Positions 2,129 through 58,779 of a stretch of 64,000 bases of DNA are shown here, piece by piece; within the stretch, counting starts at the first letter, position 1; the number at the start of each line of letters is the position of its first letter. The position numbers were made by a program, and so were the translations under genes. The notes beneath the pieces were generated by a model, which was not told where the DNA came from, made no database searches, and saw only the letters and a program-made list of their open reading frames with translations. Source of the DNA: a virus. The DNA lies in IMG/VR virus record IMGVR_UViG_3300032296_003307, positions 204,740 to 268,739 of that record; one strand, written 5' to 3'.

Positions 2129-2922
2129 TACGCAGTTGTTGCAATATCAAATTTTGGATTCATAGCCAATGCGGCTTTTCTTGACCAATCTGACCTTCTA
2201 TTTCCGGCGTTTATATCTGTAAAATAAATTGTTGCTGATTCTTTATCTTTAAAATCAGGTAATTTTTTTGGGTCTTTACCATTCAAGAAAAATGAGATGG
2301 CAACTTTTGCAGATATTTCCGGTTTTTCCAATAATTCAGGATTGTTTTCCAAATCCACGCCCGCTAATTTACCGTAGTGTCTATAATTTGCTCTTCCGGT
2401 AATTCCATTTAAACCACGCCCAACATATTTCCACCCATCACCTGGTTGAGTATTTCCCAATGGAACACCCGAATCCTTACCGTACACACAATCAAAAAAC
2501 TTTGGGTCATCACATTTTAAAGATTTGCACTTGGTCCCTCTAGCACCAAAAATACTAACAATTCTACTATCACTTGTGGTACAATAACCAAATTCTTTAA
2601 CAGCAACAAATCCTGATTCTTTACCAATAACAGATAAAATACCAATCTGTGCATATGGGTTTGTAATACCCATTTTTTCCATTTCTTGGATAGTCATATC
2701 GACCATTTTTGCGGCTTGACCTGAATAACTGTGTTTAATTTTTCCTGTTATTTTATTTTTTCCGATTGATTCGTTTTCTTTTGTTGATGGTGATGTTCCT
2801 CCACTATTGTTAGAAAATCCAAACATTTTTTTCGCCATACCCAACAAACTATCTTCAGGTTGTTCGTTGACACTCATGAGTTCTCTAACTCTATTTACTT
2901 CTTCAATAAGATTTTGTCTCAT
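2128..2922 (-). CDS. GH19-type chitinase/muramidase-like lysin with N-terminal helical tag
   Basis: 264 residues. From about residue 85 the protein matches the GH19 pattern: KESGF with candidate catalytic Glu102, a second Glu110 in KEFGY, then GDGWKYVGRGLNGITGR (161-177) and NYRHYGKLAGVDLENNPEL, the substrate-groove signature of GH19 endolysins. It probably cuts peptidoglycan glycan strands. The first 20 residues form an unrelated amphipathic segment, RVRELMSVNEQ, ending in V-N-E before a low-complexity Ser/Thr linker. That segment resembles T4 capsid-targeting leaders cut by the prohead protease, so the enzyme may be packaged and delivered with DNA rather than being the holin-partnered lysin. 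No signal peptide. An NTATTTAT motif lies 4 nt before ATG. Confidence 0.8.
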   Translation of the reverse strand: MRQNLIEEVNRVRELMSVNEQPEDSLLGMAKKMFGFSNNSGGTSPSTKENESIGKNKITGKIKHSYSGQAAKMVDMTIQEMEKMGITNPYAQIGILSVIGKESGFVAVKEFGYCTTSDSRIVSIFGARGTKCKSLKCDDPKFFDCVYGKDSGVPLGNTQPGDGWKYVGRGLNGITGRANYRHYGKLAGVDLENNPELLEKPEISAKVAISFFLNGKDPKKLPDFKDKESATIYFTDINAGNRRSDWSRKAALAMNPKFDIATTA

Positions 2923-2926
2923 AACA

Positions 2927-2934
2927 ATAAATAG
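2927..2934 (-). promoter_or_regulatory. Candidate late promoter octamer (CTATTTAT)
   Basis: Reads CTATTTAT on the minus strand and ends 4 nt before the ATG of the lysin gene. The spacing matches about a dozen other genes in the window. Confidence 0.5.
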
Positions 2935-2958
2935 CTTGTTTGTTTAAAAAATATTCAA

Positions 2959-2966
2959 TACCTTTG
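2959..2966 (+). promoter_or_regulatory. Bacteroidota-type promoter -7 element (TACCTTTG)
   Basis: Matches TAnnTTTG, the Bacteroidota housekeeping -7 element, with TTG triplets about 20 nt upstream. The ATG of a 55-residue gene begins 4 nt after it, implying a transcript with almost no leader. Confidence 0.6.
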
Positions 2967-2970
2967 TATT

Positions 2971-3138
2971 ATGATGCCACCAAAATATCTACAAGACCTA
3001 CTTGAAATGTATGACAAGAATCTAACAATGTTCGTAGGCGACGTACCTGTTTTGTTTTTCACCACCACAATTGTACGTGAGGAAGAAGAACCAACAAAAG
3101 CACCAAAAGATAATATTTTACAATGTTCAGCGGGATAA
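2971..3138 (+). CDS. Small hypothetical protein (55 aa)
   Basis: Starts with two adjacent ATG codons directly behind a TAnnTTTG promoter and ends at TAA. The product begins MMPPKYLQDLLEMYDK, has a hydrophobic stretch (VPVLFFTTTIV) and a charged tail (REEEEPTKAPKDN). It is short, but promoter placement and composition suggest a real early gene. Function unknown. Confidence 0.5.
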   Translation: MMPPKYLQDLLEMYDKNLTMFVGDVPVLFFTTTIVREEEEPTKAPKDNILQCSAG

Positions 3139-3415: not shown

Positions 3416-3487
3416 GGCCCCTTCGTCTATCGGCTAGGACATATCCCTTTCACGGATAAAAGACGGGTTCGATTCCCGTAGGGGCTA
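3416..3487 (+). tRNA. tRNA-Glu (TTC)
   Basis: Acceptor GGCCCCT/AGGGGCT (first pair G-U), anticodon stem TATCC/GGATA around loop CTTTCAC with anticodon TTC, T-arm GGGTTCGATTCCC, discriminator A. CCA is not encoded. First tRNA of the array. Confidence 0.9.
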
Positions 3488-3493
3488 CAAAAC

Positions 3494-3628: not shown

Positions 3629-3634
3629 CAAAAT

Positions 3635-3708: not shown

Positions 3709-3713
3709 CAAAC

Positions 3714-3755: not shown

Positions 3756-3757
3756 GA

Positions 3758-4461: not shown

Positions 4462-4468
4462 CCAAATC

Positions 4469-4537: not shown

Positions 4538-4544
4538 ACTAAAT

Positions 4545-4580: not shown

Positions 4581-4585
4581 TCCAT

Positions 4586-4657: not shown

Positions 4658-4662
4658 CAAAA

Positions 4663-5354: not shown

Positions 5355-5663
5355 ATGAAACAAAAAATTAATAAACTCGGTGCTTTGGTATCTGTAATGA
5401 TATGGTTTGTTCTTATAACCATCTTAGGTATCTTTTTGACTTCTTGTGGTAAGCCAAAGAACAGGATTGAAAAAGGTGATATTGTTCAGAAGTGTCAGAT
5501 TGATTCTATTAATGTTTTACCACAGCATTCAACAATCGAACCTGACAGGAAGTGTGAATATTTTACAAGTTGTGGAAGTAGAATTGTGTCACATGAAGGC
5601 GCTTTCAGGGTTGGTGATACTGTGACTTACGTATATAAGAAATCTAATAGTCAGAAAAACTGA
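5355..5663 (+). CDS. Small lipoprotein
   Basis: 102 residues from the ATG that follows the TATCTTTG promoter. A longer upstream frame exists but runs through tRNA-Pro and is not the start. The N-terminus has basic residues, a long hydrophobic segment (VSVMIWFVLITILGIF) and the lipobox LTSC, so it should be lipid-anchored after signal peptidase II cleavage. The mature part is about 70 residues with four Cys. Phage lipoproteins often modify the envelope or block superinfection, but nothing here proves that. The 3' end overlaps the convergent gene by 20 bp. Confidence 0.7.
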   Translation: MKQKINKLGALVSVMIWFVLITILGIFLTSCGKPKNRIEKGDIVQKCQIDSINVLPQHSTIEPDRKCEYFTSCGSRIVSHEGAFRVGDTVTYVYKKSNSQKN

Positions 5664-6300
5664 TTAACTTTTTTATACGGTTCATAGATTCTGTCATACC
5701 GTCTTGGTAATCATATTTTCCAACATAAACGTCAGGATATTGTACGGTAATTGGATATTTTTTGCCGATTCTTTCCATAATATCATCCTGAATCGCTTCA
5801 GGACTATTCTCACTTAAATCGTCAAGTTCTGATTGAAACATACTTACTTTTTCTTCAAATTCAAAATCACCAAATTCTAAATTTGGGTAATATTTTTCAA
5901 CCACTTCATCCATTTTATTTGTATTTAAATCTCCAATAGTAACTACCGTTCCGTCGGCCATTTTTACAGTGCTGTTTGGATAAATTAAAACAGAATCTAA
6001 TTCTAAATCGTACGAAATTAAAATAGATGAAGTACGTATTGGTTCAATAGCATAATTCGTAACTTTATAAATTAATTTGGCGTAAGGGGTTTCTACAATT
6101 CCGGGGTTTTCAATTACCTCAGAAATAAGTTTAAAATAGTTTTTTTCACCACCGTAATATTCAACAATATAAGGTAAAAAATCTTCCAAGCCCCAACTTT
6201 CTTTCCCTATAAATCTTGAAACTTGATTTAAATTATATACATCAACACCTCTGGCATCCCAAAGTTTAAATAGTACTTTTTTTTCTTGGTCTGTTAACAT
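5644..6300 (-). CDS. Hypothetical protein with C-terminal RIKKLISFSDY tag
   Basis: 218 residues, paralogous to the next upstream gene (6302-7084): both begin with a helix (LTDQEKKVLFKLW versus LTPNQKKILSIIW), share a YYGG motif and end in nearly the same tag, RIK(K/N)LISFSDY. The body is acidic and mixed alpha/beta. Its start follows the upstream stop after 1 bp, so the pair is one transcript. The shared C-terminal tag fits a targeting role. Function unknown. Confidence 0.65.
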   Translation of the reverse strand: MLTDQEKKVLFKLWDARGVDVYNLNQVSRFIGKESWGLEDFLPYIVEYYGGEKNYFKLISEVIENPGIVETPYAKLIYKVTNYAIEPIRTSSILISYDLELDSVLIYPNSTVKMADGTVVTIGDLNTNKMDEVVEKYYPNLEFGDFEFEEKVSMFQSELDDLSENSPEAIQDDIMERIGKKYPITVQYPDVYVGKYDYQDGMTESMNRIKKLISFSDY

Positions 6301-6301
6301 A

Positions 6302-7084
6302 TTAATAATCTGAAAAAGATATTAAATTTTTTATTCTAATTACTGACTCGTTCAGATTTCCCAAATCAAAATCAACAATTTCAACTTTTGGTATATTTGG
6401 TTTTGGTGTAGGTGATGTTTGAACAAAAAATTTTTCTCGGGCAATTTTATTTAAGTAATCACTGGCGTTTTCTTTAATAGTTTCAATTAGTTCCTTAAAA
6501 TCTCCGTATATTTCTTTTTGATATTGTATATATTCTTCGCTACCAACTTCAATTTGAGGTAAATATTTTTCCATAAGTTGTTTGATTCCTAAATTTTTGA
6601 TTTCCAAAACAGGAATATATGTTGTTTCCCTGTTAAGGGTTGTGAACTTAAGAGTTGAACTTGGATGTAAATAAATTTTTTTCAAATACATTTTTGTGTT
6701 TTTAGGAACGCCATTATCATAGTAGGTTTGTACTAATTGTATGTCACCTAATTTTAAAAAAATGGTACCCATTGGGTTAATTAACGAACGGTCTTTTTTT
6801 GTTTCCTTTTTATAGACACCAAACTCCTGTAATATTTTTTCTTTGTATTTTTCTAATCCGCCGTAGTAATCAAAAAATAAATCGGTATAATATTCAGGTT
6901 GTAATTTATCTTTTGTGTAATAACCCACAAAACGTAAATCGCTTTCTAACCTATTTGGGTCAAAACCTTTTTTATTCCAAATAATGGATAGGATTTTTTT
7001 CTGATTTGGTGTTAATCTAGGTTCTCTTAAACCAAAAATTTTTTTTAGGTCAAATTCGTTAATTAGAGAAATTTTATTACCCAT
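6302..7084 (-). CDS. Hypothetical protein, paralogue of the neighbour, with C-terminal tag
   Basis: 260 residues with the same architecture as the 5644-6300 product but with about 20 extra N-terminal residues (MGNKISLINEFDLKKIFGLREP). That leader contains I-N-E. The C-terminus is SVIRIKNLISFSDY. An ATATTTAT motif lies 6 nt before ATG, so it is probably a late gene. Either or both proteins may be internal virion components. No family recognised. Confidence 0.65.
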   Translation of the reverse strand: MGNKISLINEFDLKKIFGLREPRLTPNQKKILSIIWNKKGFDPNRLESDLRFVGYYTKDKLQPEYYTDLFFDYYGGLEKYKEKILQEFGVYKKETKKDRSLINPMGTIFLKLGDIQLVQTYYDNGVPKNTKMYLKKIYLHPSSTLKFTTLNRETTYIPVLEIKNLGIKQLMEKYLPQIEVGSEEYIQYQKEIYGDFKELIETIKENASDYLNKIAREKFFVQTSPTPKPNIPKVEIVDFDLGNLNESVIRIKNLISFSDY

Positions 7085-8330: not shown

Positions 8331-8960
8331 ATGTCTGACATTATTGCAGGAAATTTTCAGTGGAAGTCTAACGGAGGTCCTCGTAATCACCCATCAGGTT
8401 CTTGGAAATTATCTAATGCGTGGGATTTAGAGTCCAGAGAGGGTAATGATGTGTTTTCCGCTGTTAATGGAATGGTAACCGAAAAACAAAGTCCGTCAAC
8501 ACCAGGTCATCTGTATGGTACATCGATAACTATAAGAGGTGAAGGTTCCTACCCAACTATTTTTTATAGTAATTTAAGTTCTGTAAATGTTAACGTAGGG
8601 TCACAAGTTAGAGTCGGTGATAAACTAGGTGAAATTGCAAACGCGCCGGCAGGTACATCCCCTTATATACACATAGCTCTACCAATTGGAAAAGATATAA
8701 CATCGATTATAAGTAACAACGGTTCTTTTGTATCTCCATCTGGTTCATCTTCAGGTGTTGAGGATGCCGCGGTCGCCGCAGGAGCCGCAGGAGCGACTGC
8801 GTTGGCTAGTGGTGATGGTAAAAAAGATAATGGAGATGGTGGAAGTTTTATGGACAAATTTTATGGTACTTTAACCAAAGGTTTATTACCCTTTGGATTA
8901 GTTACGGGTGTTGCCGGTATGAAAGAAGAGGTCGAAAGAATTAAAGAACTTATGAAATAA
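8331..8960 (+). CDS. M23/LytM-like protein with degenerate active site and C-terminal tag
   Basis: 209 residues. Residues 25-125 follow the lysostaphin-type M23 layout: NAWDLESREGNDVFSAVNGMV corresponds to HxGxD...GTPVxAaxdGxV, a central strand GTSITIRGEG, VGSQVRVGDKLGEI, and PYIHIALPIG for the HxH strand. The first metal-binding His is replaced by Asn and only one His of HxH is present, so peptidase activity is doubtful; it may only bind peptidoglycan. An Ala/Gly-rich stretch (130-165) leads to a C-terminal helix, EEVERIKELMK, matching tags on other proteins here. Confidence 0.6.
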   Translation: MSDIIAGNFQWKSNGGPRNHPSGSWKLSNAWDLESREGNDVFSAVNGMVTEKQSPSTPGHLYGTSITIRGEGSYPTIFYSNLSSVNVNVGSQVRVGDKLGEIANAPAGTSPYIHIALPIGKDITSIISNNGSFVSPSGSSSGVEDAAVAAGAAGATALASGDGKKDNGDGGSFMDKFYGTLTKGLLPFGLVTGVAGMKEEVERIKELMK

Positions 8961-9282: not shown

Positions 9283-9639
9283 ATGGAACATTTAAAAAAA
9301 ATTATACACGAAAGTTTGGGACGTGTTCTCAAAGAACAAATGGCTGCCCCAATGGAGGGACAAAAACAAGCGACGCAACAACCTCAAAAATCTATTAAAC
9401 CTAAAAAAGACGAAATTAAAGTTCCTGAAAATTGTTTTGGCGGACCTAAAAAACAAGCCGGTGGTTTAGTCGCTTTAATTCAAGTATTAATGAAGGATAG
9501 TGATAGAAACGGTGAAAGAGCGGTTGAGGAAATTAAAAGATTCTCAGAAGGTAAATCTAAACCTGACCCTAAAGAAGTGGTACAAATTTTAAACAAATAC
9601 AACAAACAAAAATATTTGGGATACGCAGGTTGTTTCTAA
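9283..9639 (+). CDS. Basic hypothetical protein with N-terminal tag
   Basis: 118 residues. Starts MEHLKKIIHESLGRVLKEQ, an amphipathic helix ending in L-K-E, which fits the tag plus (L/I)xE cleavage-site pattern. A Lys/Gln/Pro-rich linker and a small helical domain (about residues 55-118, with CFGGPKKQAGGLVALIQVLM) follow. Single late gene with a double octamer and a terminator. Possibly an internal virion protein; no family recognised. Confidence 0.6.
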   Translation: MEHLKKIIHESLGRVLKEQMAAPMEGQKQATQQPQKSIKPKKDEIKVPENCFGGPKKQAGGLVALIQVLMKDSDRNGERAVEEIKRFSEGKSKPDPKEVVQILNKYNKQKYLGYAGCF

Positions 9640-10138: not shown

Positions 10139-11971
10139 ATGAAACTTTTTTCAATACTGACCGAGTCAAAAAAATCTGACGTAAAAAAAGAATTACTGTC
10201 TAAATTTCCTGAAGCCGAAATGTATATTGACCGTGCGATTAATTCTGACCCAACAGGATTCAAATATATGGATTACATTAAACGTTCATTTATTGATTTA
10301 TATCCTATTTCTAAAAGTTGGGGTAATGAAGAAAGTCTTGTTGAATATTTTGACGATATATCTTGGTTTGAAAACAATTATAAAAGATTATCTATTGATG
10401 ATATTGATTCAATATATGAAGACGCTAAGGCGGACAACGCATCGCAAAAAATGTTGAGAAGCATTGTATCAATAAATCCAAACAAAATAAGGGATATTAA
10501 TTCTTGGGACATTAGGACGTTAAAATATGTTAGGGATTATGTTAATTCTAAAAAAACAAGAAAACAAATGGAAAAAGAAGCCAAGGAAGGTGCTGACTTG
10601 GTTTATGAATCCCCAAACAAAAAAGTTTTAGTTTTCAAAGTTAAAACACATGCCGCCGCTTGTTACTATGGTAGAAATACCAAATGGTGTGTAACAACCG
10701 CAGGACAACCTGGTCATTTTCAAAGGGAAACCCAAGATTACGATATGTATTTTGTTGTTGATAGAACAGGTGAAAGGGAAAAATTGGCGGTACAGAAACC
10801 AAAAGACAGACGCAAATCAAACTTCTTGAAAGTATGGAATGAAAAAGACGTTGAAAAGGGTCCTAATCATTTATACGATTTGTATCCTGAAGTACATGAT
10901 GTATTTGTTGGTGATTCAATGAACGAAACAATTAAGTTCTTAAAATCATTAACAACAGATAATTTGGGTAAGTACCGTTGGGATTATCCTGATGATTTAA
11001 TTACTGATATGTATTTGGCGGGTTCTACTGAAGAGGGTAATTTAAGGATAATAATTGAGATTACCTTTTCAGATAAAAGTTTTTGGGAAATGTATGATAT
11101 AAATGAATATGATAGTACATTAATTCAAACTGTCTATTCTCCTTACAACAGTTGGGATTTTTGGGACACATACACAATAAAAGAAGATTTTGAAGAAGGT
11201 TATTTGTGGAACTACGCAACCAACGAGCAACAAGAAGAAATATCAAGGTTATGTCAAATTTTATTTCCATCATATCTTGTACAATTAAAACAAAATACAT
11301 TGGACGAAATGCCTAAGGAATTTAATCAGTTAGTAGAAAAAACTTTCCCAAGAAAAATTGATAGTATGGTCTATGAGTACACAGCATCAAAGAATAATGA
11401 AGCCGAACACAACGTTAGAGATGGATTAGAAAGTGAATATTGCGACATATTCAAAGAATATAATGGTAAGGTGATGTCTTGTTTTTATAGATACGCCTTT
11501 AATGTTAATGACCTTATCAGGTTATTAGAAGATTACAAAGGTGGTGATGTTTTTGATTCTTTAAGAGCATATGTAAATAGAGTGTCTGACGCACCATATG
11601 AAATTAGTGATTGGGCTTACCAAGGTGGGGGGTCATCTGACGAATACAATGGTATGGAAAACGAATTTGACTCTTTAATTAACGCGATGCAAGAATCGGT
11701 TGATAGTAGTGAAGATGTTGAAGACATTACCCGAAAAACAGAGGAGTACAACAACTTCAACAAATTTTTAGAAAAAAATAAAATAACTGTTGGAGATTGG
11801 AATACATTACCATCGGACAATAATTTTTCCTTTAGAATTAATACAATTGACTTTAAAGAGGGTAAGGTGGACCTTCAAATCAAATCAAACGATACGGGCA
11901 ACATGAAAGAATATTTCCCCACCTACGAAGAATTTACAAGTTTATTATACAATTATCAACTTTTTAGATAA
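10139..11971 (+). CDS. Large hypothetical protein with TKWC-type domain
   Basis: 610 residues. N-terminus MKLFSILTESKKS contains L-T-E, a possible prohead-protease site. Around residues 165-260 it has YYGRNTKWCVTTAG and a following strand region (MYFVVDRTGEREKLAVQ). A similar Y-G-x-x-T-(K/R)-W-C motif recurs, as far as I recall, in proteins of large phages, without an assigned activity. The rest is acidic, rich in Asp/Asn/Tyr, without membrane segments. It is large and preceded by an octamer, so probably a late, possibly internal virion protein. Function unknown. Confidence 0.6.
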   Translation: MKLFSILTESKKSDVKKELLSKFPEAEMYIDRAINSDPTGFKYMDYIKRSFIDLYPISKSWGNEESLVEYFDDISWFENNYKRLSIDDIDSIYEDAKADNASQKMLRSIVSINPNKIRDINSWDIRTLKYVRDYVNSKKTRKQMEKEAKEGADLVYESPNKKVLVFKVKTHAAACYYGRNTKWCVTTAGQPGHFQRETQDYDMYFVVDRTGEREKLAVQKPKDRRKSNFLKVWNEKDVEKGPNHLYDLYPEVHDVFVGDSMNETIKFLKSLTTDNLGKYRWDYPDDLITDMYLAGSTEEGNLRIIIEITFSDKSFWEMYDINEYDSTLIQTVYSPYNSWDFWDTYTIKEDFEEGYLWNYATNEQQEEISRLCQILFPSYLVQLKQNTLDEMPKEFNQLVEKTFPRKIDSMVYEYTASKNNEAEHNVRDGLESEYCDIFKEYNGKVMSCFYRYAFNVNDLIRLLEDYKGGDVFDSLRAYVNRVSDAPYEISDWAYQGGGSSDEYNGMENEFDSLINAMQESVDSSEDVEDITRKTEEYNNFNKFLEKNKITVGDWNTLPSDNNFSFRINTIDFKEGKVDLQIKSNDTGNMKEYFPTYEEFTSLLYNYQLFR

Positions 11972-12891: not shown

Positions 12892-14298
12892 ATGCCAAGA
12901 TTTATTCTAACAGAACAAGAAAGAAAAAGGATTCTTGAATTATATCTAAATGAACAAGTGGCTCAAATACCATACCCAACTGGTGTTACTAAAGCCGCGG
13001 TAGACAAAATACTATCTATTTCGGCACAAAATAAAAAAGGTTTAAGAGGTTCTTATTTGGCTCCTTTACAACAACAAGAAATAGACAAAGAATTTGGTAA
13101 AGATACTTTTAAGAAATTTTTTGATGGTGGCGGTAGAGACGTTTTAGACGGAAAAAAAACATTCAAAGATAGTTCTATACCGGAAATTTTAAATTGTGTA
13201 AGATTTGATGAAAAAGATGGAGACACAATGGGAACCTATACTAACGGTAAAAAATATGTTAGAGTTTTTAATCCAAACAGTATTCAAGTTTTTTGGGAGA
13301 CAGGGGCTTTTCAACAATTTGTACGTAAATCGGATAACTCTGCAGGTTCATTAACTAAAAGTGGTACATACGCATGTAACGCACAAAAGAACGATGTGGT
13401 AATTAGCGCCACCGATACAGGTGCAAATACCGGTTCAGTAAATCTTGATTGTGTAAGATTTGATGAAAAAGATGGAGACACAATGGGAACCTATACTAAC
13501 GGTAAAAAATATGTTAGAGTTTTTAATCCAAACAGTATTCAAGTTTTTTGGGAGACAGGAGAATTTCAACAATTTGTGCGTAAAGCAGACAACTCCGCAG
13601 GTCCATTAACTAAAAGCGGAAAATGGTCTTGTAACGCAACAAAAGATAACGTTGTAATAGACACCAACCAAACCGGTTCTACATCAAACAAGACTGAGTG
13701 GATGACATATTTAACTGACTCAGTTTTTAATGGTAAATCAAAACAATATCTAAAATATAAAGACCAAGACTCTGTTTATTTCCCTGATTCTAAAACATAT
13801 TATACTGAGAAAGAATGGTTTACCGTTGATGATTCAGGAAATGTGACAAAATCAGGATATTGGTTCCAAGACAAAAATAAACCTCAAAACAGCCAGTTTA
13901 CGCAAGGTGAAGGTAAAAATCCAAATGAAAAAACTGTTACAGTTGCACCTCCTTTAGAAAATGTTGCAAAAGGAACCGCAAGTATGAAACAGGGTAACCA
14001 AGGTGATTCTGTAAAAACATTACAACAAATGTTAATAGATAAAGGATATTTAAAAATCAATAATCCAACTAATTACTTTGGTAATATGACCTACAATGCG
14101 GTTCTACAGTTCCAAAAAGACAGTCTTTTGAAAAAACAAGATGGTATCGTTGGTTATGAAACATATACTGCCTTGTATAGAGCCCCTGAAGTTCAAAAAA
14201 CACCTGATGTGAACATACAACCAAAAGGAATACAAGCTCAACCACTTTCGTCCGAAACCCCAAAGACACCTACCCAAATAACAATACCCAATAGATAA
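12892..14298 (+). CDS. Tagged protein with duplicated domain and peptidoglycan-binding domain
   Basis: 468 residues. N-terminus FILTEQERKRILELYLNEQ is a helical tag ending in L-N-E then Q. Two nearly identical ~70-residue modules begin CVRFDEKDGDTMGTY (residues about 102 and 187) and end near NDVVI/DNVVI; a third, diverged module (YLKYKDQDSVYFPDSKTYY) follows. The C-terminus has a PG_binding_1 domain (GNQGDSVKTLQQMLIDKGY ... TYNAVLQFQKD ... GIVGYETYTALY, about 365-425). The combination suggests a packaged or tail-associated cell-wall-binding protein. The late octamer supports virion use. Convergent with the ClpC-like gene 1 bp away. Confidence 0.7.
   Translation: MPRFILTEQERKRILELYLNEQVAQIPYPTGVTKAAVDKILSISAQNKKGLRGSYLAPLQQQEIDKEFGKDTFKKFFDGGGRDVLDGKKTFKDSSIPEILNCVRFDEKDGDTMGTYTNGKKYVRVFNPNSIQVFWETGAFQQFVRKSDNSAGSLTKSGTYACNAQKNDVVISATDTGANTGSVNLDCVRFDEKDGDTMGTYTNGKKYVRVFNPNSIQVFWETGEFQQFVRKADNSAGPLTKSGKWSCNATKDNVVIDTNQTGSTSNKTEWMTYLTDSVFNGKSKQYLKYKDQDSVYFPDSKTYYTEKEWFTVDDSGNVTKSGYWFQDKNKPQNSQFTQGEGKNPNEKTVTVAPPLENVAKGTASMKQGNQGDSVKTLQQMLIDKGYLKINNPTNYFGNMTYNAVLQFQKDSLLKKQDGIVGYETYTALYRAPEVQKTPDVNIQPKGIQAQPLSSETPKTPTQITIPNR
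13193..13304 (+). repeat. Direct repeat copy 1 (112 bp)
   Basis: Identical over 112 bp to 13448-13559, offset 255 bp (85 codons), inside one gene. Identity at silent positions points to a recent tandem duplication or gene conversion. Confidence 0.85.
13448..13559 (+). repeat. Direct repeat copy 2 (112 bp)
   Basis: Second copy of the 112-bp repeat at 13193-13304; the modules diverge on both sides. Confidence 0.85.
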
Positions 14299-20720: not shown

Positions 20721-21115
20721 GTCATCTAATCTATGTAAATGGTTTAGGACCTAATTACAAAGGTGATAATATGTATGAGTTCATATTTAGTGACGAATTT
20801 GATGTTTGGGGGGAAGGATGGGATAGAAAACCGGCACACGGAGCTCCTCTTCCCCCCGAACTTAACTACATAAAAAAAGTTGGAGTTCTTAAAAATACCG
20901 AAATAATATTAGAATTAATTCAAAACTCCGATTATTTTGCGGTTACAGATGCTATGGAGGATGTAATTGCATTAGCCTGGGAAACTGATGAATCATGTGA
21001 AAACGAAAAAAGATTAGTTTTTAAGTTTGGCGATTCGGAAGATACCATAAAAGACAAGTTGTACGAAAGAGATTTGTTAATACATTTTGAAAAAGAAGAA
21101 ATCTATGAGAGCTAA
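20717..21115 (+). CDS. Hypothetical protein of the packaging operon
   Basis: 132 residues; ATGA overlap with the previous gene and an 11-bp overlap with the next. Begins MSHLIYVNGLGPNYKGDNMYEFIFS, contains WGEGWDRKPAHGAPLPPEL and an acidic C-terminal half with VIALAWETDES. I recall similar short proteins near packaging genes in other T4-like phages, without known function. Confidence 0.6.
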   Translation: MSHLIYVNGLGPNYKGDNMYEFIFSDEFDVWGEGWDRKPAHGAPLPPELNYIKKVGVLKNTEIILELIQNSDYFAVTDAMEDVIALAWETDESCENEKRLVFKFGDSEDTIKDKLYERDLLIHFEKEEIYES

Positions 21116-21965
21116 TAAAATAAAATTTTTAATGGAAAACGGATTACCGTCAAATTTCCTAATAAATTTAACTGACAGTCAGTTAAATACTTTACACAAC
21201 AGATATTTGAGTGAACAACCCCAAACTAAGGGTACTCTAAAAGTGCCTGCCGGTTCACAAGCTGAAAAAGACGCTCAAGCAAAAAAAATACCTTACATGA
21301 CTTATGAAGAAGAAATGAGAGAAACCGAAGAAGACCCAATGGACTTTGAAAAAGGGGCTAGAAGTCAAGATGCAAAACAAGTTGGTCCCGCATCTGATGA
21401 CGGGTTTGGTAACTATGACGACGGTACGGGTGAGTTCACCGAAGGTAAGAAAAAATCCAAATATAACGCTTGGGCAATCTGCACATCACAAATGGGTAAA
21501 GAGTTTAAAACCACTGAAAGAAGTCAGTGGTCAGCAAAACAAAAAAACAAATACGAAAGATGTGTAAAAGATGTTAAGCAATCGTTGAAGGAAGGAAAAG
21601 ACCCTTACGTATCTTTGTTGGAATCAAAAGTGATGAACATGGTACAATCAAATATCCTTCCTGGTATGACTAAAAATGATTTGATAAAAATGGTTAAAGA
21701 AAACATGCAAATGGTTAGTTTCAAAAAATTGGACAAACCAATTGGAAAAATGTATTCTTCTAAAAAATCAAATCCTATGGAGACAGTAATGGCGGAACCC
21801 GCAACAAAACCAAAAACAGCACCTCCTAAAATTAAACCAGGAACAAGACCAAAGACAACACCAAATCCCTACCAACCACCAAAAGAAACACCAAAAGAAA
21901 AACCAAGAGCAGAAGACTATAAGTCAATGTTTATTCAGGCATTAAATCAATTATTGGGTAAGTAA
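21105..21965 (+). CDS. Tagged head-region protein
   Basis: 286 residues from ATG 21105, which overlaps the upstream stop (ATGAGAGCTAA); an upstream TTG start is less likely. The N-terminus (MRANKIKFLMEN ... LHNRYLSEQ) is a helical leader ending in L-S-E before Q, a possible prohead-protease site at about residue 42. A middle domain has YNAWAICTSQMGKEF ... KYERCVKDVKQ with two Cys, and the C-terminus is Pro/Lys-rich then helical. Likely an internal or capsid-associated protein; activity unknown. Confidence 0.6.
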   Translation: MRANKIKFLMENGLPSNFLINLTDSQLNTLHNRYLSEQPQTKGTLKVPAGSQAEKDAQAKKIPYMTYEEEMRETEEDPMDFEKGARSQDAKQVGPASDDGFGNYDDGTGEFTEGKKKSKYNAWAICTSQMGKEFKTTERSQWSAKQKNKYERCVKDVKQSLKEGKDPYVSLLESKVMNMVQSNILPGMTKNDLIKMVKENMQMVSFKKLDKPIGKMYSSKKSNPMETVMAEPATKPKTAPPKIKPGTRPKTTPNPYQPPKETPKEKPRAEDYKSMFIQALNQLLGK

Positions 21966-28601: not shown

Positions 28602-29312
28602 ATGAAGATTTTAGGACCAAACGATACGGGGCGTGGTATTTTGATTGAGTACGATGCGGGATACATTTCCCCAACCGAAAAACACAACCTTCATTTGATG
28701 GAGCAAATGAAGAAGGACATGTTAGATTATTCAAAACCATTTGAATTCTATGCCGTACTACAAAAATACAACACACCAAATAGAAACGGAAGAATATATC
28801 CTGAAAGGATTTTGAAAAGAGAATCGGAAAATTATAAAAAGATGATTCAAAAAGGTACCTCTTTATCAGAGTTGAACCACCCTGAATCATCTTTAATTGA
28901 TTTGGACCGTGTATCACACATTATCACTGACATTTGGTGGGATGGTATAATTTTGATGGGTAAATTAAAATTATTGACTTCGCCAGGTTTTCATGAAAGA
29001 GGTATTGTTTCAACCAAGGGAGACCAAGCGGCTAACTTACTAAGACAGGGGGTTACTTTAGGTATTTCTTCTCGTGGAGTTGGTTCGTTAAAAAAAGTAG
29101 GTGAAAGAAATGAAGTGCAAGACGATTTTGAATTAATTTGTTTTGATTTAGTATCGTCACCGTCTACACCTGGCGCGTATCTATTCTTGGACCCAAAAGA
29201 AAGAAGTAATTTTGAAGAAAATTTGGAAGAAGAAATACAAAGGAAATCGCAAGGCTCAATTGATAAATCAGTTGACTTAATGAAGAAATTAACCGATTAT
29301 TTATCAAAATAA
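28602..29312 (+). CDS. Prohead protease (gp21-like, S77 family)
   Basis: 236 residues, near the ~212 of T4 gp21. Motifs: FYAVLQKYNTPNRNGRIYP (49-67), SELNHPESS with candidate catalytic His93, VSHIITDIWWDG, GISSRGVGS with candidate catalytic Ser156/157, and ICFDLVSSPSTPGA with Asp182. After head assembly such proteases cut scaffold, capsid N-termini and internal proteins at (L/I)-x-E sites. This underlies the tag hypothesis for other genes here, and the capsid protein has a matching LINE-A site. It lies between portal and scaffold as in T4. Confidence 0.93.
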   Translation: MKILGPNDTGRGILIEYDAGYISPTEKHNLHLMEQMKKDMLDYSKPFEFYAVLQKYNTPNRNGRIYPERILKRESENYKKMIQKGTSLSELNHPESSLIDLDRVSHIITDIWWDGIILMGKLKLLTSPGFHERGIVSTKGDQAANLLRQGVTLGISSRGVGSLKKVGERNEVQDDFELICFDLVSSPSTPGAYLFLDPKERSNFEENLEEEIQRKSQGSIDKSVDLMKKLTDYLSK

Positions 29313-29646: not shown

Positions 29647-31290
29647 ATGACTGAAAAAGATTTAGTTCAGGAAGCATTACAACAAATGAAAAATTTGGAG
29701 GACGTAGTGCAAGAAAATGCAAAAGGAATACTTGGAGCAACAATGGCTCAAGAAATCTCAGAATTAGTAAAAGAGTCTTTAATTAAAGAGACTAAGAAAA
29801 AAGAGTCAATGGAACAGGATGAAGACGAAATGCCTGATGACACGGATGACATGGATGACACTATGGATTCATTATCACCTGAAGGTGACGATGATGATTT
29901 AGGTGCTGATGATGACGACGTAGATTCGATGGGAATGTCACCTGATTCGATGATGGAACCAGAAGATGATGATGTAATTGACGCAACAGGATTAGACGGC
30001 GAAAAACTTTGGAACTTATTTAAGAAAATCGACCCTAACAAAGACCAAATTTTAGTTCAAAATGATGGTGACAACATTCACATTAAAGATGATGAAAACG
30101 ATGTTGAATACATCCTTAGAATGAACGAAAGTTATGACGATGTTTATGAAGATGATTATTCTAATGTAGATGATATTTATTCTGAAGTATTCAACGAAGA
30201 CATGGGATATGATTTAGAAGAAGATGAAGACGGAATGGGTATTGAAGATGCCAATGTTGATATATTCAGCGAAGACATGGGATATGACCCCGAAGATTCA
30301 GAAACCGTTTACGAAATCACTATGGACGAAGAAATGGACGAGGAAATGGATGAAGACATGGGTTATGACTCAGGTGAGTTTGATGAAACCATCTATGAAA
30401 TTACCATGGACGAAGAAATGGACGAAGAAATGTACGAAGAAATGGATGAGGAAATGGACGAGGAAATGGACGAAATGTACCACGATGATGTCAATGAAGC
30501 AAAATACATGATAAAACCTGTTATGGGTAAAATGAAGAATAAGGGCGAAGCTAAAGAAAATAAAACCATGAAATCAGCAATGAGAGGTTTGAAGAAAGGT
30601 GAAACAAAAGAAGGTAATTATATGTCAAAACCAATAAAACCAACTAAACAAACCAAAGTTGATGGATATAAAAAAGAAACTTTACCCGAAAAAGGAATCA
30701 GTAACGTTGTAAAGAAAGAAACTAAAGAAGGGTCATTTGTAACAAAACCAAAAGGTGTTGGTATGAAACCTGGACAAAAGAAATTCGAATACAAAGAAGC
30801 TGCAAGAACTTACGGTAATGGTTCTAAAGAAGGTCGTGGTTTAAGAAAAGGAATTACACCAAATAGAAATTTTGTTTATGAAAATGAAGTTTTACAACAA
30901 GAGATTGAGACTCTAAGAGAAAAAAATGAAGAGTACAGAAAAGCACTCAACGTTTTTAGAGAAAAACTTAATGAAGTTGCGGTGTTTAATTCAAACTTAG
31001 CATACGCGACTAGGTTGTTTACAGAACATTCAACATCTAAAACTGAAAAGATTAATATTCTTAGAAGATTTGATGATGTAGAAACACTTAAAGAATCTAA
31101 ATCGTTGTATTCCGCTATTAAAAACGAGTTGTCACAAACAACAAACAATAAAGTTGTTACAGAATCTATCGAAAGAAAGATTGAAAAAACAGCATCAACA
31201 GGCTCAGCAACTAATTTGATTGAGTCTAAAACTTACGAAAATCCTCAGTTTTTAAGAATGAAAGATTTGATGGGTAAGTTACAAAAATAA
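29647..31290 (+). CDS. Prohead core scaffolding protein (gp22-like)
   Basis: 547 residues, very acidic. N-terminal helix, long Asp/Glu/Met-rich low-complexity part (about 55-280, with tandem MDEEMDEEM), a Lys-rich middle, then a coiled coil (EVLQQEIETLREKNEEYRKA) and a helical C-terminus (ETLKESKSLYSAIKNEL, IESKTYENPQFLRMKDLMGK). Position between protease and capsid genes, acidity and C-terminal coiled coil match T4-type scaffolds, which fill the prohead and are destroyed by the protease. It is longer than T4 gp22 (269), mainly through the acidic repeats. Confidence 0.8.
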   Translation: MTEKDLVQEALQQMKNLEDVVQENAKGILGATMAQEISELVKESLIKETKKKESMEQDEDEMPDDTDDMDDTMDSLSPEGDDDDLGADDDDVDSMGMSPDSMMEPEDDDVIDATGLDGEKLWNLFKKIDPNKDQILVQNDGDNIHIKDDENDVEYILRMNESYDDVYEDDYSNVDDIYSEVFNEDMGYDLEEDEDGMGIEDANVDIFSEDMGYDPEDSETVYEITMDEEMDEEMDEDMGYDSGEFDETIYEITMDEEMDEEMYEEMDEEMDEEMDEMYHDDVNEAKYMIKPVMGKMKNKGEAKENKTMKSAMRGLKKGETKEGNYMSKPIKPTKQTKVDGYKKETLPEKGISNVVKKETKEGSFVTKPKGVGMKPGQKKFEYKEAARTYGNGSKEGRGLRKGITPNRNFVYENEVLQQEIETLREKNEEYRKALNVFREKLNEVAVFNSNLAYATRLFTEHSTSKTEKINILRRFDDVETLKESKSLYSAIKNELSQTTNNKVVTESIERKIEKTASTGSATNLIESKTYENPQFLRMKDLMGKLQK

Positions 31291-31324: not shown

Positions 31325-33208
31325 ATGGGAGCATTATTAGATTCAGGTCTTGTAGGTAACATTGGTCTTAAGCATCTTAAGGTTATCAAAGAAGACACTA
31401 TTAACAAATGGGATAAACTAGGTTTCTTAGAAGGTCTAAGAGGTCACTTAAAAGAAAATGTTGCGCAGTTGTACGAAAACCAAGCGTCTTTCTTAATTAA
31501 CGAAGCGGCTTCAACCACAGATTCAGGTTCTTTTGAAACAGTTGTATTCCCAATCGTGAGAAGAGTATTCTCTAAACTTTTGGCTAACGACATCGTTTCT
31601 GTACAAGCAATGAACTTACCTATCGGTAAATTGTTCTACTTTGTACCTAAAATTCAAGGTTACTCAGGTGGTACTTTGACATCTCCAGCATGGGGTGATG
31701 CACAATCAGGTCAGCACTACGCACCAATGGGGTCTCCAGGAAACTACCCAGGTAATCCTGATTCAGGTTATTTGGCGGCAGACAGCACAGGTGACTACAA
31801 TCCTTACTACAAGAAAAATCTTTACGATTTATTCTATGAAGGTAACGAAGCTGACTTGGACCCTCCAGGGTTGTTTGACTACTCTAAAGGTAGATGGTCC
31901 GCAATCACTTCAACTACTTTGACTCAGAGATGGGTTGGTAGCAACTTAGTTGATTGGGGTGTAAGTGCTAGCACAGAATATAGAAAAATTATTCTTAAGA
32001 TGTGTGGATTTGCTGATACAGGCGCAGGTAAATTAATCGGTCCTAACGGTAACGAAATGGACACTGAAGAATTCTTGGCTAGTTTACAAATCAGAACTTT
32101 GAAATCTGCAGGTTCTTCAGGAACAGGTTCTTTCTCAGGTCTTTCTATGTCAGACATCAATGGTGTTTCTAACCCATTGTTATTCAGAGTTGTAACTCAA
32201 ATCTACGGTCAAGGTATTGTACAGTACGGAGGTTACGCATCAACTTCATGGGCTTCTACAGGTTCAGGTGGAAAATTCTGGAATACTTGTGACGCTAACG
32301 GTTGTATTTACTTGGAAGTTGATTTACAACAACCAGTATGTATTGATTGTGCAACTAACTCACTTGATGGTTACTCAGGTTACACTACAGGTGGTGAAGG
32401 GTTAGCACCTGACGCTTCATTCTTCGCAGTATTTAGAAGATATGAAGAGTTAGAATTTGAAGATAAAATTGGTGAAGTTTCTTTTGATTTGGAATCTGTA
32501 ACAGTTTCCGTAACTGAAAGAAAATTGAGAGCTCAGTGGTCTCCTGAATTAGCACAGGACGTTGCAGCATTCCATAACATCGACGCTGAGGCTGAATTAA
32601 CAGCTTTATTGTCAGAACAAATCGCGGCTGAAATCGACAGAGAAATCTTAAGAGATTTGAGAAAAGGTGCGGCTTGGAACTTAAGATGGGATTACAACGG
32701 ATGGAAGAGACTTTCTCAGACTACATCATACACACAAAAAGATTGGAACCAAACTTTGATTACCGCAGTTAACCAAATCTCAGCACAGATTCACAAATCT
32801 ACTTTGAGAGGTGGAGCTAACTGGATTGTTGTGTCTTCTGAAATTAGTGCAATTTTTGATGATTTGGAATACTTCCACGTGTCAAACGCAGCACCTGAAC
32901 AGGACCAATATAACATGGGTATTGAAAGAGTAGGTACTTTGGCAGGTAGATACCAAGTTTACAGAGACCCTTACTTCCCAGCTAACCAAGTGTTGTTGGG
33001 TCACAAAGGAACATCTTTGTTAGACACAGGTTACATATACGCACCATATGTACCTCTACAATTAACTCCAACAATGTATAACCCATTCAACTTCACACCT
33101 ATCAAGGGTATCATGACAAGATACGCTAAGAAGATGGTTAACAACCGTTTCTATGGTAGAATTACAGTTGACGGCGTAAGAACATTTGACTTGAGAGAAT
33201 TGAGATAA
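31325..33208 (+). CDS. Major capsid protein (gp23-like)
   Basis: 627 residues (T4 gp23 has 521). The N-terminal ~60 residues are helical and end in FLINEAAS: I-N-E60 then Ala, the expected prohead-protease cut. After it, VVFPIVRRVFSKLLANDIVSVQAMNLPIG resembles the gp23 start of the mature chain, and ELEFEDKIGEVSFDLESVTVSV, AELTALLSEQIAAEIDREIL and the C-terminal YAPYVPLQLTP ... GIMTRYAKKMVNNRFYGRI match conserved gp23 regions. Extra length lies in a Gly/Ser/Tyr-rich insert at about 115-360. No octamer is upstream, so transcription from the scaffold promoter is likely. A terminator follows. Confidence 0.93.
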   Translation: MGALLDSGLVGNIGLKHLKVIKEDTINKWDKLGFLEGLRGHLKENVAQLYENQASFLINEAASTTDSGSFETVVFPIVRRVFSKLLANDIVSVQAMNLPIGKLFYFVPKIQGYSGGTLTSPAWGDAQSGQHYAPMGSPGNYPGNPDSGYLAADSTGDYNPYYKKNLYDLFYEGNEADLDPPGLFDYSKGRWSAITSTTLTQRWVGSNLVDWGVSASTEYRKIILKMCGFADTGAGKLIGPNGNEMDTEEFLASLQIRTLKSAGSSGTGSFSGLSMSDINGVSNPLLFRVVTQIYGQGIVQYGGYASTSWASTGSGGKFWNTCDANGCIYLEVDLQQPVCIDCATNSLDGYSGYTTGGEGLAPDASFFAVFRRYEELEFEDKIGEVSFDLESVTVSVTERKLRAQWSPELAQDVAAFHNIDAEAELTALLSEQIAAEIDREILRDLRKGAAWNLRWDYNGWKRLSQTTSYTQKDWNQTLITAVNQISAQIHKSTLRGGANWIVVSSEISAIFDDLEYFHVSNAAPEQDQYNMGIERVGTLAGRYQVYRDPYFPANQVLLGHKGTSLLDTGYIYAPYVPLQLTPTMYNPFNFTPIKGIMTRYAKKMVNNRFYGRITVDGVRTFDLRELR

Positions 33209-33517: not shown

Positions 33518-34195
33518 ATGTCTAACAAAAAAACAATATCAGAGATAACGGGCACGGGCGGTTCAGGTTCTTTCAAAATTCCTTTGAATTTGGCACCTAG
33601 AATGTGGACAAAAGAACAGATGGGTGCGTTTACAGAACCAGTATCACACTACTTAAACCCAAACGTCGCATATGATAGTTATGACGGGACATTAAAAATG
33701 AGTAAACAGGAAATAAACAAACAAGAAAAAAAGGCTAAAAAAATGGCTAATTTTATGAAAAAAATTGAAAACGAGTTACCAAAGGGGACTCCTAAGTACA
33801 TACAAACCCAAGCTAATTTACCCAAAGACGAATATAAACCCGTACTACAAGAAGATTTAGCGGTTTGGTTCGGTAAAAAGAAAAAAGGTAAAGGTAGCTC
33901 CCAACCACAAGGACCATGGGTTAATATTTGTAGAAAAAAAGAAGGCGGTGGTCATCCACCTTGTGGCAGACCAGATGCCGACCCTAAAGGATACCCAAAG
34001 TGTAGAGCTGCCGGAGTGGCGGCAAAAATGACAGATTCGCAAAAAAAATCCGCATGTGCTCAAAAAAGAAGAGAAGAAAAAAAGGACACACAATCAGGTA
34101 AAGGTCAAAAACCGGTTATGACCTCATACAAACCTAAAAATGAATCTTTAAGAGAAATTATTGTTTCTATTCTTAGAGAAGAAACTTCTATTTAA
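33518..34195 (+). CDS. Basic protein with Cys-containing phage domain and C-terminal tag
   Basis: 225 residues, highly basic. Residues about 110-195 contain EDLAVWFGKKKKGKGS, WVNICRKKEGGGHPPCGRPD and GYPKCRAAGVAAKMTDSQKK, a small Cys/Gly/Lys domain I recall from large-phage proteins (DUF6321-like, name from memory). The C-terminus SLREIIVSILREETSI is a tag-like helix with L-R-E. Basic, tagged proteins would suit co-packaging with DNA. The 3' end overlaps the convergent gene by 8 bp. Confidence 0.6.
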   Translation: MSNKKTISEITGTGGSGSFKIPLNLAPRMWTKEQMGAFTEPVSHYLNPNVAYDSYDGTLKMSKQEINKQEKKAKKMANFMKKIENELPKGTPKYIQTQANLPKDEYKPVLQEDLAVWFGKKKKGKGSSQPQGPWVNICRKKEGGGHPPCGRPDADPKGYPKCRAAGVAAKMTDSQKKSACAQKRREEKKDTQSGKGQKPVMTSYKPKNESLREIIVSILREETSI

Positions 34196-34639: not shown

Positions 34640-35119
34640 TTAACAATATGTACCTGAACATCTTTTTTTTCCATCTAAACCAGGCATTTTTCCTTTACAT
34701 ACTTGAACCGCATATCCGTTTGCGTAAGCCGAAGGGTATACGTCAAATTTGGCTTTAGCTGCAGATTTACCTCTTGCACATAACTTAGTGCCTGTTTTTT
34801 TTCTACCCTCAGTCATAGTATCAATCATTTGGTCATCCATTTCTTCATCATCGGAACCTTCCGTTTCATTCATTAAAAAATCAAATACTTGGTCCATATT
34901 GTTTTTTGCTTCGGCAATATGGTCTTGAGCCCAATCATGACCATTATCTAAAATACCTTCAATTACGGATTTATCCATATCAAGAAGTATTTCGCACTGT
35001 CTTTTCATTTGTTCTAAATTGGAAAAAAACATATACCTGTTTGATTCTACACCACCACCTTCATTAAGAAGTTTATTTATTATTCTTTTTAAATCGTTTT
35101 CTGATAATTTTGTTCTCAT
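34640..35119 (-). CDS. Tagged protein with DUF5872-like C-terminal domain
   Basis: 159 residues. N-terminus KLSENDLKRIINKLLNEGGG is a tag-like helix with L-N-E before Gly. A helical middle precedes a Cys-containing C-terminal domain (GTKLCARGKSAAKAKFDVYP, then SAYANGYAVQVCKGKMPG) resembling the DUF5872-type module of large phages and some bacteria (name from memory). Start overlaps the upstream stop by 4 bp. Candidate internal virion protein. Confidence 0.6.
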   Translation of the reverse strand: MRTKLSENDLKRIINKLLNEGGGVESNRYMFFSNLEQMKRQCEILLDMDKSVIEGILDNGHDWAQDHIAEAKNNMDQVFDFLMNETEGSDDEEMDDQMIDTMTEGRKKTGTKLCARGKSAAKAKFDVYPSAYANGYAVQVCKGKMPGLDGKKRCSGTYC

Positions 35120-56992: not shown

Positions 56993-57041
56993 CTTATTCT
57001 TTTCAGAAAAAGATACAAAAAATTACGTAAAAATCAAAAGA

Positions 57042-57632
57042 TTACTTAAGTTTTTTAATTTTAGAGATTTTTCCTTCAAAAATATGTTGACCAACTCTGA
57101 ATGAAAATAAATCATTTGATTTTGATGTTGACTCAACTAATAAACCGCTTTCAGATAAAATCTCACGTACGGCTTCTTTTACCATCTTTTTAATGTTTTG
57201 TGTTTCAGAGACATTTTGTCTTTGAGGTTGTCCTTGAGGTTGTTTCTTTACGGTTGTTTCTTCTTCTGAAAACAAATCTTTTTTCATTAATCTCGCCGCT
57301 TTGTTAACCAATTCATCACTTATTGATGGTCCCGCCATGGACGCAGGAGGTGCGATTGGATGCTCAATCATCAGTCTTTTTATTTCGTCAGGTAATTTAG
57401 AACTCATAATTCTATCCTTAGTTTGTGGAACTGGTGTTGAATTTTGTTTTTGTATTACCGCTTGTTCTGACATTAAAAAATCTTGTGGTATATTATACGA
57501 AGCTTGAGGTGTGTCAAAGTTTTCTACTATTGGATTAGAAACTGATTTATTGGCTCTAGGTGTATCGTTGTGTCTATCCATTATTTTTTTAGACACCATT
57601 AATTTCTGCATTAAAGAATTTTCGTCCATCAT
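57042..57632 (-). CDS. Hypothetical protein with (L)xE sites
   Basis: 196 residues, low-complexity and Pro/Gln/Ser-rich in the middle, helical ends. Near the C-terminus IKKMVKEAVREILSESGL and LVESTSKSN provide two (L/I)xE-S sites, then a beta tail (FSFRVGQHIFEGKISKIKKL). The segment resembles an internal tag. Function unknown; last gene of the 59620-57042 transcript. Confidence 0.5.
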   Translation of the reverse strand: MMDENSLMQKLMVSKKIMDRHNDTPRANKSVSNPIVENFDTPQASYNIPQDFLMSEQAVIQKQNSTPVPQTKDRIMSSKLPDEIKRLMIEHPIAPPASMAGPSISDELVNKAARLMKKDLFSEEETTVKKQPQGQPQRQNVSETQNIKKMVKEAVREILSESGLLVESTSKSNDLFSFRVGQHIFEGKISKIKKLK

Positions 57633-57644
57633 ATTACTATATTA

Positions 57645-58025
57645 TCAAAATTTACTATTAATTATAACACGATTCATGCTTTTGTCACCATTAAAATTGT
57701 ATCCTGGTCTTGGAGTGTTAAATTTTTCTGTTGTTGGTTTAAACGACATTATTTTATCTAATCTAAATAATCTCCAAGAAGGTAAAGGTAAAACACCTAA
57801 GTACGCTTTGTGAGACGAGCCTTCATAGTCCCAAGCTCTTAAAACCAAGTTATTCGCCTTAGAATACCCTAAACATACAGGTTCTATTAAACGCAGACCT
57901 TTACCGCCAGGTTCGTCCCCGTCATAATAGATTACCGTGATATCTTTGTTTTTTATTGCTTTTTGAACGTCATTCAAATTAGCAACCTCCAACAGAATAC
58001 CTTTTAAGGTGTTTGTTAATTTCAT
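57645..58025 (-). CDS. Small WYL-like domain protein (tentative)
   Basis: 126 residues. GLRLIEPVCLGYSKANNLVL, RAWDYEG and WRLFRLDKIMSF follow the WYL-domain layout (R-x-I-E-P, hydrophobic strand, R-x-F-R-L-D-R-I), a ligand-sensing beta domain. N-terminus MKLTNTLKGILLEVANL has a tag-like helix with L-L-E. No DNA-binding domain. Stop overlaps the upstream gene by 1 bp. Confidence 0.5.
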   Translation of the reverse strand: MKLTNTLKGILLEVANLNDVQKAIKNKDITVIYYDGDEPGGKGLRLIEPVCLGYSKANNLVLRAWDYEGSSHKAYLGVLPLPSWRLFRLDKIMSFKPTTEKFNTPRPGYNFNGDKSMNRVIINSKF

Positions 58026-58315
58026 TAAAAATCGGGATACCTTTTATTCTTATTGTATTTGTTTATTTTTATTTCAAGTTTTCTTTCAACTACATCTATA
58101 CTAGTACCCGCATCTTCATTGAAGATATCTAAAAATACTCCTGTACCCCTACCCAAAGTATCTCCATCGGCAATTGCGTCAGGTGAAGTAACTGAGTATT
58201 CGTCTGCTTTAGGCGTGTAGTCGTTTTTAACTTGGTTTACAACTCTTTGTCTGTCAGCAATTGCGGTTAACAAGTTAGTTGGTTGTGAATAATCTAAAGG
58301 GATTAAAGTTGCCAT
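58025..58315 (-). CDS. Small hypothetical protein (96 aa)
   Basis: Begins MATLIPLDYSQPTNLLTAIA, with Asp/Gly-rich SPDAIADGDTLGRGTGV and a basic tail. Overlaps neighbours by 13 bp and 1 bp, so it is translationally coupled. Possibly a small structural protein; unknown. Confidence 0.55.
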   Translation of the reverse strand: MATLIPLDYSQPTNLLTAIADRQRVVNQVKNDYTPKADEYSVTSPDAIADGDTLGRGTGVFLDIFNEDAGTSIDVVERKLEIKINKYNKNKRYPDF

Positions 58316-58779
58316 AAATTTTCCATTAATTGATTTATCCTTTTGAGGCTGTTTAGTGCTTGCTCATTCATGTGTTTATCAACACCTGATTTGTGCGATT
58401 TTGATGGGGAATTGTTCATGTTTGATAATTGAGGTGAATAGTCTCTGTCCATTTGCATTCCCGTTTCTCTTTTGTTTCTGTCGGTCATTTCTAAACCTCT
58501 ACGAGCACCTGATAAGATAGATTCAACAAATTGTTTCATTTTAAGACCCCCATTTAAATTAAATTCAGGTCCATTTTGGTCACCTTTAAAAGAATCGAAA
58601 AAATTTTTAATTCTTTTTGCTTGTTGATATGTCATAGAGGTAGACCCTTGTAATTGTCTATTTCTTTCAAACCCGTCCTTACCTTGACCCGCAGCGCCGT
58701 GTTGTCGATACATATCTATAAGATGTTTTCTAACATCTTCAGGCATTTCGAATTTTTGACCATATAAATTACTATTCAT
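58303..58779 (-). CDS. Hypothetical protein with C-terminal tag
   Basis: 158 residues, polar. MPEDVRKHLIDMYRQHGAAG and a Gln/Lys-rich middle lead to HMNEQALNSLKRINQLMENL near the C-terminus, a match to the recurrent RIxxLMxN tag. Co-transcribed with flanking small genes. Unknown function, possibly packaged. Confidence 0.55.
   Translation of the reverse strand: MNSNLYGQKFEMPEDVRKHLIDMYRQHGAAGQGKDGFERNRQLQGSTSMTYQQAKRIKNFFDSFKGDQNGPEFNLNGGLKMKQFVESILSGARRGLEMTDRNKRETGMQMDRDYSPQLSNMNNSPSKSHKSGVDKHMNEQALNSLKRINQLMENLWQL

Follow-up and report, generated by a model that had tools for sequence, protein, structure and literature searches.

The head module and the tagged genes of the window

We analysed a stretch of viral DNA of 64,000 nucleotides (the window), bases 204,740-268,739 of the IMG/VR record IMGVR_UViG_3300032296_003307, which totals 268,739 bases. 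A first-pass annotation had proposed from the letters alone that unrelated proteins encoded here share a short terminal tag, ending at sites of the kind cut by a prohead protease, and that this tag loads cargo into the phage head. The window encodes a gp21-type prohead protease (28602..29312, plus strand; phrog_207, E=8e-44; Peptidase_S77, E=2e-23, 83.4 bits vs a cut-off of 27), a probable scaffold (core) protein (29647..31290, plus strand), assigned from its position between the protease and capsid genes and from its conserved termini, the major capsid protein (31325..33208, plus strand; Pfam Gp23, E=7e-72) and a T4-type portal. The capsid propeptide ends at LINE60|A61, with codon 60 ending at 31504, and the LINE|A site was invariant among the homologous capsid N-termini of relatives that were inspected; both the gp21-like protease and the matching capsid site named in the annotation are confirmed. 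Open reading frames (ORFs) were called over the whole record mechanically, by first ATG, and their start positions are therefore approximate.

By sequence comparison the record (G000) falls into two parts, 0 to ~118 kb resembling Flavobacterium phage immuto and ~121 to 268 kb resembling window-type phages of an uncultured lineage, and each half has a complete head module with its own terminase, portal, protease, scaffold and capsid gene. It is likely that two phages were joined in assembly, the other possibility being a true hybrid, and conclusions were therefore drawn lineage by lineage, independent of the join.

Every peptide quoted in the first-pass annotation was present in the ORF named, and its N-terminal examples held for five genes. 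The GH19 lysin gene 2128-2922 (GH19 by Pfam) carries MRQNLIEEVNRVRELMSVNE, of the EExxRhxxLM form (2863..2922, minus strand), and gene 9283-9639 carries MEHLKKIIHESLGRVLKE (9283..9336, plus strand), for which the L157 homologue has MDRLKKLIRESLVAHLNE. The peptidoglycan-binding gene 12892-14298 (PG_binding_1, Pfam) starts with MPRFILTEQERKRILELYLNE (12892..12954, plus strand), the best match to the motif trained outside the window that is described below, and its homologues, at 34% body identity, bear other tags. The same motif picked out the N-terminal region of gene 21105-21965 ending LTDSQLNTLHNRYLSE (21105..21215, plus strand), which is replaced by MKKNKNILKINESDLKKIVNVLLQE in the homologue L072_5. 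Gene 34640-35119 carries MRTKLSENDLKRIINKLLNE (35060..35119, minus strand). The sixth example, 27136, was rejected as a tagged gene, the E not being kept in many of its homologues. Tags that had been missed are the short MKLFSILTE of gene 10139-11971 (10139..10165, plus strand), found with the outside-trained motif and with homologues keeping a short LxE-type start; MKLTNTLKGILLE of gene 57645-58025 (57987..58025, minus strand), with MKLIGSLKSLITE and MKLYNTIKQIILE in homologues; and the N-terminal MSNKKTISE|I of a gene adjoining the capsid gene (33518..34195, plus strand), which by homologue alignment also bears the C-terminal tag NESLREIIVSILREETSI.

C-terminal tags proposed for 8331, 33518 and 58303 are upheld through their homologues. 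The M23 peptidase gene 8331-8960 (M23 by Pfam) ends with KEEVERIKELMK (8922..8957, plus strand), and a distant M23 homologue, L108_16 (26% identity), ends NEEIYRIKDLMKKII, resembling the scaffold ending FMRMKDLMTKIIK. Gene 58303-58779 carries SLKRINQLMENLWQL (58306..58350, minus strand), and its homologue G017_63 (36% identity) ends SLKRINNIMKKII. The remaining C-terminal examples, genes 5644 and 6302 (5647..7084, minus strand; 24% identity, E=9e-14), have the near-identical ends RIKKLISFSDY and RIKNLISFSDY; they count once because they are adjacent paralogues, and these ends are possible but unconfirmed tags. As a widespread C-terminal tag RIKxLISFSDY was rejected, since elsewhere it occurred only in spurious frames and was not found as a C-terminus. 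Domains found on tagged proteins are peptidoglycan binding, LysM, endolysin-like, GH19, M23 and P-loop kinase-like, in agreement with the earlier suggestion that the cargo includes cell-wall enzymes, while most tagged proteins have no recognisable domain.

Enrichment of the tag at protein N-termini

Genome-wide, the frequency of (L/I)xE over the first 20 residues is ~2.5 times that in the interior of proteins. A 16-residue motif obtained by expectation maximisation, trained only on ORFs outside the window (consensus ILtEsilkklvek.lk), favoured window N-termini over internal blocks with Fisher p values from 1e-6 to 0.06 across thresholds and models, the leading N-termini being those of 12892, 21105, 34640 and 10139. 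Among the initial 24 residues the simpler pattern hh[STNKRQDEGAL]E was enriched 3.1-3.7 fold for ORFs of the window (p=5e-6), a figure that rises to 4-5 fold for the window-type portion of the record (p=4e-23). At window C-termini the outside-trained motif fell short of significance with the first model and was at most marginal with the second (threshold test); because these termini are not enriched as a class, the C-terminal tags rest on homologues. From the excess over internal blocks we estimate ~75 tagged ORFs in the window-type half, ~77 in the relative G015 and ~64 in the relative G017, totals that are statistical estimates and not gene lists.

An N-terminal excess of the (I/L)xE tag was found in this record, two relatives, T4 and immuto, and the N-terminal ratio for [LIVM][LIVMTA][STNKRQ]E was 2.2-7.4 in tagged genomes. 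The latter pattern showed no excess in five large viral contigs lacking the T4-type protease, one of them of the same G+C content (ratios 0.6-1.3, all p>0.2), and none was seen in the same pattern test in Microcystis phage Mel-JY01. A tag profile found 14 sites in this record and 0 in 15 control contigs. A tblastn search of phages and plasmids with a tag peptide gave no match and is uninformative, the query being short.

Conservation of the tag stops at a cleavage-type site

A DNA pattern for LTESDLxRIV was scanned over IMG/VR and matched at least 118 stretches, of which 80 loci were read. Among the matches listed, to which the following counts refer, 80 of 83 evaluable ones start 5-7 residues after the Met of an ORF of at least 60 residues, and the carriers form 50 body clusters without mutual similarity at E 1e-3. 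Conservation in these carriers runs past the pattern to an (I/V/L)xE site and reaches background 1-2 residues later: the E scores 3.8 bits, the residue behind it 1.5 and those further on 0.3-0.6. The search pattern did not include this E, which stands at the expected column in 48 of the 50 bodies and is shifted four residues from it in the remaining two, and V is seen at the first position of the site besides L and I. The reversed peptide, with the same composition, had no match in IMG/VR. The codons encoding the tag differ synonymously between carriers, which indicates that it is the peptide itself that is conserved. A second form, EEIxRIKxxMG[LF], was N-terminal in all 24 IMG/VR matches and nearly always has (L/I)xE no more than a few residues behind it. 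Together with the N-terminal excess over chance, the 50 unrelated bodies bear out the proposal that unrelated proteins share a terminal tag, and the point at which conservation stops agrees with the (L/I)xE-type end predicted for it.

Exchange of tags on conserved bodies

The family of 34640 shows different tags on one body. In 24 aligned homologues the body is conserved (57-75% identity) and E20 is invariant, the linker behind E20 is variable, and the tags before it differ in both sequence and length (MRTKLSENDLKRIINKLLNE, MKKIVRLNESMIQKLVRKVLQE, MNSLDRIIRKVIQE and MRNIEHKITRLLRE). An AlphaFold2 model of the 34640 protein, of moderate confidence (mean predicted local distance difference test score 63), has a helix at residues 7-19 and a break at 21-23. 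In the 33518 family I7 and E9 are invariant in 16 aligned homologues; three members without the C-terminal tag (L044, L074 and L095) have a long N-terminal one, MxRLxxIIKKVIKE, and one member has both, so that the tag has apparently been relocated between the protein ends. Together with the 12892 and 21105 homologues, these alignments support the view, already put forward in the annotation, that the tags are modular, and show them exchanged between lineages on one body.

At 121-162 kb of the record (L009-L011) lies a dense run of small ORFs, most with a tag at their start, which had also been overlooked. This may be a zone where packaged proteins are exchanged.

The scaffold C-terminus as a proposed model for the tag

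Among ~45 distinct relatives the scaffold protein is conserved at both termini and variable in the middle. It had no match in Pfam and none among 50,697 phage records, whereas relatives of the protease occur in at least 597 IMG/VR stretches (including L018-L097); on this basis the window lineage is one of abundant aquatic phages for which no sequenced isolate was found. The scaffold and its immuto-type counterpart, which ends RWQKLAGIIK, have a C-terminal region in common (E ~1e-11); the window scaffold ends NLIESKTYENPQFLRMKDLMGKLQK, near invariant in relatives. We propose its C-terminal peptide, LIESKTYENPQFLRMKDLMGKLQK (31216..31287, plus strand), also near invariant, as the model for the RIKxxMG tags, and the immuto-type tag peptide MKKQILSEQFRRMQKLAGIITES contains the LAGII segment. 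In immuto itself (NC_055915) the ORFs at 25061 and 111675 are examples of predicted tagged proteins (MKKQILSEQF.RMQ.LAGIITES), for which a cut directly behind IITE is expected.

In BLOSUM62 scoring of the window-type half, the probe RMKDLMGKL matches best, apart from its own site, at four places (score of at least 24), all of them N-terminal tags, and none of 33,547 internal sites there reaches a score of 24. G015 does not show this effect, and G017 shows it in part. The probe RWQKLAGII likewise scores best at N-terminal tags, both in immuto and in the first part of the record, and each probe finds no tags in the other lineage. In IMG/VR, RMQxLAGII has 84 sites, 59 of them in scaffolds immediately upstream of the capsid gene; the other 25 comprise 21 N-terminal sites on other proteins with xE after them, three C-terminal sites, also on other proteins, and one other. 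This lone site (L425), neither scaffold nor terminal, is in a frame of 349 residues, 48 from its end, and has TES after it.

Profile comparison matched the immuto-type tag to the scaffold end at E=5e-15, and the LTESDL tag to the C-terminus of 33518 at E=1.3e-6 (hhalign). Because reversed controls reach 6e-5 at worst, the match in the sister (immuto-type) lineage alone is decisive, and that of LTESDL with 33518 is suggestive. The tag of the sister lineage thus clearly appears to copy the scaffold C-terminus, while the resemblance of the RIKEMMGLL tags of the window lineage to the scaffold end RMKDLMGKL is suggestive. An origin of the tag from the scaffold C-terminus, which the first-pass annotation had not considered, is therefore likely from these comparisons.

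Other candidate models were not supported. The protease C-terminus gave E 0.05-0.6 in profile comparison, and comparison of the LTESDL tag with the capsid N-terminus, which it might mimic, gave E=0.056 (hhalign). A scaffold probe over all fetched ORFs had significant C-terminal matches, inflated by protease homologues. Separately, the protease family has kept S(L/I)DLMxxLxxYL close to the C-terminus, a motif with a loose likeness to the scaffold end.

Co-occurrence with the protease and other features

The protease family phrog_207 was present in 15 of 15 tag-bearing contigs longer than 100 kb, vs 6 of 15 control contigs of that length picked by a tRNA pattern (p ~3.5e-4, calculated by hand).

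Elsewhere in the window, ARAGORN found twelve tRNA genes at 3416-5311 and 7489-7641, three of them with anticodon CAT. A run of minus-strand genes at 41433-56992 consists, judged by sequence, of candidate sugar-nucleotide and glycosyltransferase genes, and a comparable annotated set exists in immuto.

Interpretation and alternative explanations

We regard it as probable that these peptides are modular head-targeting and maturation tags, partly scaffold mimics, which would draw cargo into the prohead core before being removed. In such a mechanism a terminal amphipathic peptide of ~9-37 residues would let a cargo protein join the core alongside the scaffold, acting as a copy of the scaffold C-terminal peptide in the sister lineage and probably also in the RIKxLMG type of the window, and, by analogy with T4 and P1, would bind whatever the scaffold end binds. 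At head maturation the T4 gp21-type protease would cut behind the terminal (I/L/V)xE of the tag, and the cargo, freed inside the head, would be delivered with the DNA. The broader statement, that tens of different proteins per genome are loaded into the head by an interchangeable tag that copies the scaffold end and is cleaved by the protease, both in an uncultured lineage of large aquatic phages related to T4 and in its cultured sister, is one towards which we lean only slightly.

Several observations weigh against this interpretation. The RIKxLMG tag of the window matches the scaffold-end profile at E=0.003, with reversed controls down to 6e-5, profile comparison pairs the LTESDL tag with no scaffold end, only with the 33518 C-terminus, and the scaffold of Mel-JY01 ends LAGIV, yet no N-terminal copies were found in that phage. 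Co-occurrence of tag and protease may be explained in part by shared ancestry. In the virion proteome of phAPEC6 (PMC7247149; 61 of 62 proteins mapped by mass) one motif was weakly enriched (8/63 vs 26/505, p=0.025) and two others were not enriched in virion proteins. The T4 capsid-targeting sequence (CTS) best matches the gp22 N-terminus among 21 proteins, but not uniquely over the whole genome: scanning all of T4 with the start of gp22 places the internal proteins no higher than ninth and tenth. What the sequences show is enrichment, placement at termini, modularity, conservation that stops at the site, co-occurrence with the protease and a match to the scaffold end; loading, cleavage and delivery are inferred by analogy.

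The tags could instead serve only for protease recognition, as docking and cut site, with the proteins reaching the head by other means or acting elsewhere. This fits the (I/L/V)xE that closes every strong tag type, and the scaffold itself is expected to be a protease substrate; we nevertheless consider it unlikely, as RMQxLAGII also stands at the final residues of the scaffold, where nothing is left to cut, and the tag far exceeds the three residues of the motif reported for gp21 (PMC9026906). Less probable still is targeting to another compartment or complex, such as a replication compartment, the membrane or the tail, with the likeness to the scaffold end incidental: although most tagged proteins are of no known function, the profile shared by tags and scaffold ends of the sister lineage speaks against it, as does the missing N-terminal excess in the protease-less phages tested. 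We find it very improbable that the tagged proteins are old paralogues that kept their N-terminus while their bodies diverged past recognition. Tagged genes do stand in tandem at 121-162 kb and some share dialects, e.g. MNLQE(N/S)I, but in the 34640 family it is the tag that varies on a recognisable body, and the scaffold end of the sister lineage is present on other proteins. An artefact of base composition at the N-termini of AT-rich phages, which mechanical start calls might favour, can scarcely be credited, being contradicted by the lack of any N-terminal excess in the protease-less contig G044 (330 kb; 35% GC), by the unmatched reversed peptide and by the varying synonymous codons.

Relation to known head-targeting signals and significance

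Head targeting and subsequent maturation by such tags would most resemble the system of T4, whose internal proteins co-purify with the scaffold gp22 and join the core with it via a 10-residue signal, behind which gp21 cuts after L/I-X-E; targeting and cutting lie in separate residues of the CTS, and a change at position 10 still loads cargo (PMC9026906). Like the CTS of IPI-IPIII and Alt, the tags are N-terminal and modular, end at (L/I)xE, accompany a gp21-type protease and vary in cargo between phages (PMC9026906). Unlike the CTS, with its 10 residues on few proteins, they are usually longer, come in several dialects, occur also at C-termini, would number 60-80 in a large genome by statistical excess and, in one lineage, are by sequence clearly a copy of the scaffold end. 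On inspection the dialects bear no resemblance to the T4 CTS MKTYQEFIAE|A beyond the cut motif.

The N-terminal signal of P1 DarB, of at most 30 residues, is enough to bring a reporter into the head (PMC9024508), and is in this respect like the tags, whose loading is predicted from sequence. The P1 Dar proteins, unlike the tagged proteins, have no shared consensus, and no separate P1 scaffold was identified (PMC9024508). Head proteins of SPN3US/phiKZ-type phages have N-terminal propeptides cut after Glu by the prohead protease, two of them short at 20 and 24 residues (PMC10052503), and the removal predicted here would likewise take place at a Glu site; most of those propeptides, unlike the tags, are 111-254 residues long, and their protease is only distantly related to gp21. 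A literature search in a limited open-access library found no report of such scaffold-copying head tags.

The choice of head cargo in T4-related phages has so far been known for a handful of coliphage proteins. If the interpretation is true, the cargo status of many uncharacterised phage proteins could be predicted from sequence alone, and a readable tag would class many of them as injected at infection or as particle-borne cell-wall enzymes. It would also explain the binding target of the tag, namely whatever site the scaffold end uses, and would offer a general route for addressing proteins into the heads of large phages.

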